From IMG/VR virus record IMGVR_UViG_3300030118_007125, positions 16,657 through 53,531 of that record: a DNA stretch of 36,875 nt, one strand, 5' to 3'. This document shows positions 16,656 through 18,559 of this stretch, one piece after another. Numbering within the stretch: the stretch's first letter is position 1; each line of letters begins with the position of its first letter. The translations under genes were made by a program, and so were the position numbers. The notes under the pieces were generated by a model that saw nothing but the letters and a program-made list of their open reading frames with translations, was not told where the DNA came from and did no database searches. The DNA is from a virus.

Positions 16656-16695
16656 TTTACAGGTTAGTTATTATTATTATGATAGCTAACGATAT

Positions 16696-16768
16696 GGGCA
16701 GTTAGCCAAGTGGTTAAGGCTCCGGTCTCATAAACCGGCGATCCTGGGTTCAAATCCCAGACTGCCCA
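16696..16768 (+). tRNA. tRNA with CAT anticodon (Met or Ile2)
   Basis: Full cloverleaf: acceptor GGGCAGT with ACTGCCC, anticodon loop CTCATAA, T-loop TTCAAAT. The anticodon stem CCGGT/ACCGG lacks the three G-C pairs of an initiator, and the first pair is G-C. It is therefore an elongator Met or a lysidine-type Ile tRNA. CCA is not encoded. Confidence 0.92.
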
Positions 16769-16772
16769 TTAA

Positions 16773-16789
16773 GCACTCGTAGCTTAATG
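16773..16789 (+). other. Possible 5' tRNA fragment
   Basis: GCACTCG-TAGCTTAATG looks like an acceptor strand plus the start of a D-arm, similar to the tRNA at 17387. No partner CGAGTGC is visible downstream before the HNH gene. It may be a remnant left by the HNH insertion, or chance. Confidence 0.25.
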
Positions 16790-16856
16790 TAATTTTACAT
16801 TATGTTTATAAACCTGCATCATATATACATTATATGCTTAGAAAGTAGGTTCAAAA

Positions 16857-17378
16857 ATGTTTATTGAAATGAAAGAGTACATTAAACTTTCAAGAAAAGA
16901 AAGAAGAAAACATTTAAATCTTAATACACCTTGTATTGAAATTGGTGGTGATTCTAGATCTTTTAGAGGACTTTTAGCACACTATTTAAAAACAACAATA
17001 GATAAGAATGTTTACGTTTGTCACGCTTGTAATAACGATAAATGCTCAAATGTAGATCATCTTTATTGGGGAACACCAAAAGATAACCATATTGATCAAG
17101 TTGAATGTGGTAGTTGGAGTTCTCCAAGAGAAAGAACAATTAAAAAGTACGGTCTAGAAGAAGCAAATAAAATACACAAGAGGATAGCATCTTTAGGAGG
17201 AAAATCTGGTGGTGGAAAAAACAAGCTTTCAAAAGAGCAAATTCAAAAATATAAAGAATCGATACTTGAATGTGAGTTTCCTAAGAGAGGTTGGAAGTCA
17301 AGAGCAGCAAGAAAAATGAATGTTTCACATACTCAAATTAAAAGGATTTACGATATTTATTTAAAGAATATAATATAA
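16857..17378 (+). CDS. HNH homing endonuclease
   Basis: A 173-residue protein lying between tRNA genes. Residues 53-80 show the HNH motif: VCHACNNDKC (C55, H56, C58, C63), then DHLYWGTPKDNHID with H68 and N77, the layout of phage HNH homing nucleases. The C-terminus (KSRAARKMNVSHTQIKRIYD) is a helix-turn-helix that probably reads the target. It is expected to cut an unoccupied tRNA-cluster site and copy itself in. There is no intron or intein around it, so it is free-standing. An in-frame ATG at 16869 is an alternative start. Confidence 0.9.
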   Translation: MFIEMKEYIKLSRKERRKHLNLNTPCIEIGGDSRSFRGLLAHYLKTTIDKNVYVCHACNNDKCSNVDHLYWGTPKDNHIDQVECGSWSSPRERTIKKYGLEEANKIHKRIASLGGKSGGGKNKLSKEQIQKYKESILECEFPKRGWKSRAARKMNVSHTQIKRIYDIYLKNII

Positions 17379-17386
17379 AAAATTCA

Positions 17387-17460
17387 GCGCTTATAGCTTA
17401 ACAGGATAAAGCAGGGGCCTTCTAAGCCCAAGAGTTCTGGTTCGAGTCCAGATAGGCGTA
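17387..17460 (+). tRNA. tRNA-Arg (TCT)
   Basis: Acceptor GCGCTTA pairs with TAGGCGT (two wobbles), anticodon loop CTTCTAA with anticodon TCT, T-loop TTCGAGT. The anticodon stem has one mismatch. TCT reads AGA/AGG, which are heavily used in these AT- and purine-rich genes. CCA is not encoded. Confidence 0.9.
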
Positions 17461-17471
17461 TTTAATACAAT

Positions 17472-17505
17472 ATACCATACCGGTTCGATTCCGGCAGGTG
17501 GTATT
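17472..17505 (+). pseudogene. Shrunken tRNA: acceptor stem and T-arm only
   Basis: ATACCAT (17472-17478) pairs with GTGGTAT (17498-17504) in a seven-base acceptor-like stem, enclosing ACCGG-TTCGATT-CCGGC, a standard T-arm. D-arm and anticodon arm are missing. It lies between two intact tRNAs with no extra spacing. The likely origin is an internal deletion of a tRNA gene whose remaining halves still fit. Confidence 0.6.
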
Positions 17506-17508
17506 TAT

Positions 17509-17580
17509 GGGTTGCTAGCTCAATGGTAGAGCACCGGACTTTTAATCCGTTGGTTCTGGGTTCAAATCCCAGGCGACCCA
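17509..17580 (+). tRNA. tRNA-Lys (TTT)
   Basis: Acceptor GGGTTGC pairs with GCGACCC (one wobble), D-arm GCTC...GAGC, anticodon loop CTTTTAA giving TTT, T-loop TTCAAAT. AAA is among the commonest codons in this window. CCA is not encoded. Confidence 0.93.
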
Positions 17581-17612
17581 TTATTTCTTTATAAGAAGGA
17601 AAGGAACTAATT

Positions 17613-17921
17613 ATGGCGATTGAATTACATGCTAGAAAAGTTGTTAGTGCTTTTAATAAATGTTTTGATAAGCTTGATAAGTTAAATGTTGAAGACTTTT
17701 TGGTCGAAGATGGTGATTATAGAAAAGCTTATTATAAATGTTCGTATTCTGATTATGAAGAGAATAATAATATATTTATAGTTTTAGAATTTCCTGTTCC
17801 TTCTAATCCTGAATTAGCATCTGTTTCTTTCACACATGATTATAGAGTAGTAGATTATAATCAAGCTTTAAGTGATGAGATATTAGTAAAAGGACAGTAT
17901 ATAGATTATACTATTAATTAA
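17613..17921 (+). CDS. Hypothetical protein, 102 residues
   Basis: Ribosome site GAAAGGAACTAATT. A helical N-terminus (HARKVVSAFNKCFDKLDKL) is followed by acidic strands (YSDYEENNNIFIVLEF, LASVSFTHDYRVVDY). It follows the tRNA cluster directly and may share its transcript. Not recognised. Confidence 0.7.
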   Translation: MAIELHARKVVSAFNKCFDKLDKLNVEDFLVEDGDYRKAYYKCSYSDYEENNNIFIVLEFPVPSNPELASVSFTHDYRVVDYNQALSDEILVKGQYIDYTIN

Positions 17922-17944: not shown

Positions 17945-18559
17945 ATGAATCATAAAGAAATCTTAGAAAAAGCTAAAATGCATGCAAAGAATCCTAAAGA
18001 TATTCCCAAGATTGAGACTTTGCATCAGAATTTATCTCATATGACTGTAGCTTTAAAAGAAGTTGAAACAAGATTACTTAGAGTTACAGGCAAAATGAAT
18101 AGATTAGGAATAGAAAATAGAGATAAGTTTATTAATGGATTAGCTGAATGTGTATCTGTTTTGTGCAAAAACATTAGCTTAACAGAAGAATATATTAACA
18201 GTTTCTATGAAAGGAATAGTATGTTTTCAGTAGTATCTAAAACTAATCATGACAGTAAAAGAATTGTTGATTTATTGGTATGTGGTTTTGAAGGTGATGT
18301 TATCAGTTGGGGAGAAATTAGTTTAGAAAGTGGAAGTGATTTGTATTCTATAGAAGAAAAAGATTGGCTTGTGAAGATTGTAGATACAGAATCAAAAGAG
18401 GAATATGGATTAAGAATAGAAAACTTAAATATTGGTCTTCAAACAATGGCAGACAAGTTTAATTGGCATTATGAAGACTTTGTTAATCATAATGAAGATG
18501 CTATTACGGGAAGCGTTTTCATTCAATGTTGCTTGTTTGGAGATGTTATTTATGAGTAA
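17945..18559 (+). CDS. Hypothetical protein, 204 residues
   Basis: The N-terminal 100 residues are helical and likely coiled (TLHQNLSHMTVALKEVETRL), with a second helix (INGLAECVSVLCKNISL). The C-terminal half is acidic and mixed alpha/beta, ending GSVFIQCCLFGDVIYE. The ATG has ribosome site TAAGGGTTAAT. Its stop overlaps the next start. Not recognised. Confidence 0.75.
   Translation: MNHKEILEKAKMHAKNPKDIPKIETLHQNLSHMTVALKEVETRLLRVTGKMNRLGIENRDKFINGLAECVSVLCKNISLTEEYINSFYERNSMFSVVSKTNHDSKRIVDLLVCGFEGDVISWGEISLESGSDLYSIEEKDWLVKIVDTESKEEYGLRIENLNIGLQTMADKFNWHYEDFVNHNEDAITGSVFIQCCLFGDVIYE

Follow-up and report, generated by a model that had tools for sequence, protein, structure and literature searches.

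Partial tRNA genes, also called tRNA gene fragments, are known in prokaryotes (PMC9897764), and pseudo-tRNAs have been reported in phages Aeh1 and 44RR (PMC1524935), as has a degenerate tRNA in phage CBA120 (PMC3184105). In phage T4, the homing endonuclease SegB is encoded between tRNA-Ile and tRNA-Arg, and it has been reported to drive the inheritance of the T4 tRNA region and its amplification or rearrangement (PMC2988022, PMC13096335). Here we consider a viral tRNA array in which a 34-base element with the look of a hairpin lies between two intact tRNA genes. The window, that is, the whole stretch of DNA analyzed, comprises 36,875 nucleotides, positions 16657-53531 of a 53,531-base virus record that is possibly a fragment. 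We conclude that the element is very probably a 5'-truncated tRNA-Leu(UAA) gene, ordinary gene debris that probably came from an endonuclease-linked tRNA swap.

The array and the tRNA-Leu sequence in the element

The array contains, all in the same direction, tRNA-Met, an HNH endonuclease gene, tRNA-Arg(TCT), the 34-base element and tRNA-Lys(TTT). Its features are the following:

16695..16769, plus strand: intact tRNA-Met (anticodon CAT), 96% identical to the syntenic copy in the related record G001
16773..16792, plus strand: decayed tRNA-Arg, 5' end, like that of G001 (17/20 bases)
16845..16855, plus strand: perhaps a remnant of the T arm of this decayed tRNA-Arg, reaching the HNH start codon (11/11 bases); alternatively a ribosome-binding region
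16857..17378, plus strand: HNH endonuclease gene, whose product is probably a free-standing homing enzyme of tRNA arrays (PHROG HNH matches; tRNA-adjacent relatives)
17387..17460, plus strand: intact tRNA-Arg (anticodon TCT)
17472..17505, plus strand: 34-base element, predicted to fold as an imperfect hairpin (stem of 7 pairs, A/CAG internal loop, stem of 4 pairs, T loop)
17480..17503, plus strand: core of the element, a tRNA-Leu(UAA) 3' remnant with T arm, 3' acceptor strand and discriminator A (24/24 bases to two viral tRNA-Leu genes)
17508..17581, plus strand: intact tRNA-Lys (anticodon TTT)

A preliminary description of this DNA had placed the element between tRNA-Arg and tRNA-Lys and had noted that it lacks both D arm and anticodon arm. 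Its position is as described, and the two arms are indeed missing: neither ARAGORN nor Rfam calls a tRNA at the site, and a search of the window allowing as many as 3 mismatches finds no tRNA-Leu 5' half. An Rfam search around the array at E values up to 1 returned, besides the three tRNAs, weak matches that stayed under the gathering scores, and nothing at the element.

The origin of the element is indicated by its 3' part. Positions 17480-17503 match exactly, over 24 bases, the 3' end of tRNA-Leu(UAA) in two IMG/VR contigs (L004 and L005), the only ones in which this 24-mer was found; both genes are called as complete tRNA-Leu by ARAGORN, and the matched bases are the T arm, the 3' acceptor strand and A73. 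A 20-base part of the 24-mer recovered the same two IMG/VR contigs and no others. The best local alignment to the L005 gene begins at 17475 and has 27/29 identical bases, a fit equaled by 0/1000 shuffles. Furthermore, the T-arm motif, defined as G-TTCRANN-C with four Watson-Crick pairs, occurs 4 times in the window where 0.16 are expected in shuffles; three of these lie inside called tRNAs and the fourth, the only one outside them, is that of the element, so that its T arm must be regarded as real tRNA material. A tRNA gene fragment is recognized by significant similarity to one part of a known tRNA and by the absence of the remaining cloverleaf, and both are found here.

Neither the 24-mer nor its inner 21-mer is present in 84,980 bacterial and archaeal genomes, in an exact-match search that one mismatch would escape, and the nearest parents found are consequently viral. 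The 34-base pattern had 0 matches in IMG/VR, in collection scans that work by exact matching or seeds and may omit records very close to the window, and the comparison with annotated phages gave merely weak matches to tRNA-Thr, tRNA-Pro and others (best E 0.9). A complete tRNA-Leu is called neither in the window nor elsewhere in the record, whose upstream part (L003) has no tRNA gene. TTA is the commonest leucine codon, with 100 of the 195 leucine codons in 14 ORFs chosen from the 61 listed in the window. The upstream part of the record also encodes a PhoH-like protein with a PIN domain at its N-terminus (L003:978-2336, minus strand).

Pairing of the element

Folded alone, the element forms a 7-pair stem, a 4-pair T stem and a 7-base T loop at -13.0 kcal/mol, a stability matched or beaten by 8/200 dinucleotide shuffles, and this helix persists when tRNA-Arg, element and tRNA-Lys are folded jointly (17380-17585). 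The preliminary description had read this as a seven-pair acceptor stem on a standard T-arm, and neither part holds as worded. Aligned with tRNA-Leu, the 3' acceptor strand of the element reads AGGTGGT (17496-17502) and is followed by the discriminator A at 17503; in this register the facing bases pair at 5/7 acceptor positions, positions 6 and 7 being unpaired. Seven pairs are obtained only in a register shifted by two bases further out, ATACCAT/GTGGTAT, which has 6 Watson-Crick pairs and 1 G-U and in which the discriminator and the next T are paired. The T-arm motif itself is genuine, but its stem has 4 pairs, followed by an A-C mismatch at 49-65 and an uneven A/CAG internal loop.

The two halves had also been said to pair exactly. 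They do form 7 contiguous pairs (one of them G-U), but such pairing is near chance level: when the 3' part was kept fixed and 20,000 random genomic 12-mers were placed before it, 7.6% gave at least 7 contiguous pairs, and 1.0% gave at least 7 pairs with at least 6 of them Watson-Crick. With 3000 random genomic 18-mers placed upstream, 7.7% folded at least equally well. The 12 bases that precede the T arm were also compared with the parent gene, and their fit to its 5' end under an internal-deletion model was equaled by 26% of random genomic 12-mers, and their fit under a simple-truncation model by 22%.

T arms lying outside ARAGORN tRNAs provide another comparison. At least 7 such pairs were found for 1/10 of these motifs in the scanned loci, the one being the window's own (the overlapping loci L001, L002, L032 and L050 were left out), and for 0/16 in seven named phage regions. 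Since several of these T arms belong to tRNAs that ARAGORN missed, such as the Rfam-called one at L067:1736, these counts set a ceiling on the number of orphan T arms. Taken together, the random-upstream, parent-fit and orphan-T-arm counts show that the stem pairing of the element is at most mildly unusual. The apparent acceptor stem would be mostly or wholly fortuitous pairing of the AT-rich flank and the edge of the T stem with the surviving 3' strand, so the hairpin look of the element is probably accidental; survival of some 5' acceptor strand is possible, judging from the sequence.

The HNH gene, the second tRNA stump and the relative G001

The protein encoded at 16857-17378 matches PHROG HNH families (best E 2e-10) and has no match in Pfam at E 0.001. 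Its relatives were found beside tRNA genes in 6/7 records (5/5 viral loci and 1/2 phage records). In four of the five IMG/VR relatives (L066-L070) tRNA genes are present on both sides, and in L069 downstream only; in L067 and L068 the HNH relative stands directly before tRNA-Leu(UAA). In Citrobacter phage Ursula the relative begins 9 bases after a tRNA, and in Klebsiella phage K6 the nearest annotated tRNA is more than 1 kb away. These comparisons suggest that the window's gene probably encodes a homing endonuclease of the free-standing type that accompanies tRNA arrays. A small family of HNH endonucleases adjoining the tRNA genes of phage arrays can be delimited from these loci (window:16857-17378; L066-L070; L074).

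A helicase from the same record led to 26 related loci, the closest of which, G001 (102.5 kb), has 86% identity. The G001 array consists of tRNA-Met, a different small ORF, tRNA-Arg, a 96-base spacer and tRNA-Lys, and the protein encoded before tRNA-Met has a 55% identical homologue at the same place. The HNH gene is missing at the syntenic position, which is occupied by the different ORF. In the window, both ends of the stretch between tRNA-Met and the HNH gene resemble the G001 tRNA-Arg: GCACTCGTAGCTTAATGTAA (16773-16792), directly 3' of tRNA-Met, agrees at 17/20 bases with its 5' end (0/1000 shuffles), and GTAGGTTCAAA (16845-16855), just before the HNH start codon, agrees at 11/11 bases with its T arm (2/1000 shuffles). 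The HNH gene and tRNA-Arg thus form a block between two tRNA stumps, preceded by the 5' end of a decayed tRNA-Arg and followed by the 3' end of a tRNA-Leu.

The Arg-Lys spacer of G001 contains no T arm, no element and no tRNA-Leu gene. It has GGTGGTA alone in common with the element, and because 132/1000 shuffles equal this overlap we do not count the spacer as a trace of the same tRNA. The comparison of relatives proposed in the preliminary description was possible with this sole syntenic relative, which has neither the fragment nor the complete gene at the site. Searches with the tRNA-Met sequence and the flanking protein yielded no syntenic relative other than G001, and no hairpin homologue for covariation was found in the IMG/VR or annotated-phage searches. 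tRNA genes were present in 5/21 records searched (19 of the 26 helicase-related ones and the two tRNA-Leu contigs). For the neighboring protein at 17613-17921, 0 of 17 IMG/VR candidates were confirmed, and the protein at 17945-18559 was found in 0/26 related records.

Other observations were made in the arrays and spacers surveyed. The G001 Arg-Lys spacer (L032:982-1078, minus strand) forms an unrelated long AT-rich hairpin of -18.4 kcal/mol, and 0/200 shuffles were as stable. In slur09 (L078:6640-6790) and Acinetobacter phage ZZ1 (L076:11530-11650) an RNA-like stretch carries two T-arm motifs along with the common core GAAAGAATGGTTCNCGTAAG and has no Rfam family above the gathering score; blastn with the slur09 stretch gives matches in 475 phage records, and of those listed most are unannotated there. 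The middle of this stretch resembles T4 rnaC (species 1 RNA) in one segment, which makes a broader rnaC-like family possible. At L025:5430-5491 a tRNA match of 62 bases, shorter than usual, scores 31 bits where the gathering score is 29, and tmRNA genes are present on viral contigs at L005:9240-9652 and L025:20451-20852. Phage-array T arms at L005:12318 (minus strand), L066:2509 and L066:3372 lie outside both ARAGORN and Rfam calls and belong to odd or decayed tRNAs.

Origin of the element and comparison with known systems

In the reading that we favor, the HNH gene and a different tRNA-Arg would have entered the array, or been rearranged within it, as one block that replaced an old array segment, cutting into a tRNA-Arg at its left end and into a tRNA-Leu at its right end and leaving both stumps. 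About the last 24 bases of tRNA-Leu would have survived, with T arm, 3' acceptor strand and discriminator A, and the 5' acceptor strand, the D arm, the anticodon arm and most of the variable arm would have been lost. It is the decayed tRNA-Arg on the other side of the block that ties the truncation to it; the part of the HNH gene as its cause is inferred from position alone. An ancestral full tRNA-Leu at the site is likewise a deduction, as no relative carrying one there was found. The element most likely has no function and, if transcribed, would be part of the Arg-Lys spacer. Some findings count against this explanation. The 24-base core is undecayed, which fits a recent truncation and would also fit selection; furthermore, just 1.0% of random 12-mers give seven contiguous pairs with six Watson-Crick, and of the 26 T arms outside ARAGORN tRNAs in the scanned loci the window's motif alone reaches seven pairs. 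The preliminary description had considered an internal-deletion relic, and the relic part of that proposal stands, the parent being a tRNA-Leu gene. The variant of our explanation in which the deletion was internal, removing about positions 5 to 48 and keeping the first acceptor bases (ACCA from GCCA), is possible but the less likely form: 4/5 bases of TACCA agree with the parent's TGCCA, and in the tRNA register the acceptor positions 1-72 to 4-69 form four pairs, but a kept 5' strand is matched equally well by the 26% of random 12-mers given above, and positions 6 and 7 do not pair.

Readings that give the element a function or a different origin fare much worse. It had been proposed that the element could be a minihelix recognized by RNase P or CCA enzyme, acting as a processing spacer or a decoy for tRNA-directed nucleases. 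In such a reading the truncated tRNA-Leu would be released from the array transcript as an acceptor/T-arm RNA of 34 bases, through RNase P cleavage and CCA tailing, and would serve as the spacer or, by binding tRNA enzymes, as bait for them or for the nucleases. The element does lie in a row with tRNA genes of the same direction and keeps its fold within the array segment, but RNase P model substrates copy the acceptor and T stems of tRNA as one continuous stem and here the stack of 7 + 4 pairs is interrupted by A/CAG, with a T stem of 4 pairs only; the pairing is in a shifted register and near chance, the element is absent from G001, the one syntenic relative, and a decoy for anticodon nucleases would here be without an anticodon arm. 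We therefore hold this proposal to be very unlikely. No phage-encoded acceptor/T-arm minihelix gene is described in the titles and abstract openings that searches of an open-access library returned. Equally improbable is an attachment site, in which the 3' end of a host tRNA-Leu would be carried as attP of a temperate phage. attP cores often copy tRNA 3' ends. tRNA genes are common targets of integration, and integration leaves partial tRNA copies (PMC9897764), but the tyrosine-integrase domain PF00589 was found in 0/2 records (the 53.5-kb record and G001, both maybe fragments), the 24-mer and 21-mer occur exactly in none of the 84,980 genomes, and the element sits within a phage tRNA array. 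A split or interrupted tRNA, of which the element would be one half joined in trans or by splicing to an upstream 5' half, has hardly any probability: an upstream 5' tRNA half is present (16773-16792), but its sequence GCACTCG is that of a tRNA-Arg and is not complementary to AGGTGGT, and the window has no tRNA-Leu 5' half and no intron family at Rfam gathering scores. An exon of a group I intron was rejected on the latter ground, and a homologue of T4 rnaC or rnaD was rejected because these RNAs, aligned locally to the array region, match best at a tRNA T arm and at an AT-rich stretch and not at the element.

Read as a truncated tRNA-Leu gene, the element has two implications. The locus is a clean example of the decay and turnover of phage tRNA arrays beside endonuclease genes, with two tRNA stumps flanking an HNH gene and tRNA-Arg. 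It is also a warning that a 3' tRNA stump and an AT-rich flank can mimic a minihelix, for which about 8% of random upstream stretches suffice. If the hairpin were a processed RNA after all, it would be a natural anticodon-less tRNA minihelix, of real interest.

Partial tRNA genes and degenerate phage tRNAs are already known, and the element is most likely another example of them, not a new kind of RNA. Like them it keeps the 3' part of a tRNA and adjoins intact tRNAs and a mobile-element gene. Unlike the tRNA gene fragments described in prokaryotes, it is shorter than the fragments that ARAGORN and Rfam searches call, and no tyrosine integrase was found in the record, the probable cause being exchange within a phage array and not integration into a host tRNA. 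Mitochondrial armless tRNAs keep the anticodon arm and in this differ from the element. T4 rnaC and rnaD, stable RNAs at the end of the tRNA array, are likewise non-tRNA stretches with tRNA-like parts, rnaC having a T arm near its 3' end, but they measure 139 and 119 bases against the 34 of the element. Finally, as with T4 SegB, the endonuclease gene of the window is free-standing, lies directly before a tRNA-Arg and is found inside a phage tRNA array, whereas SegB is a GIY-YIG enzyme and that of the window is a predicted HNH enzyme.
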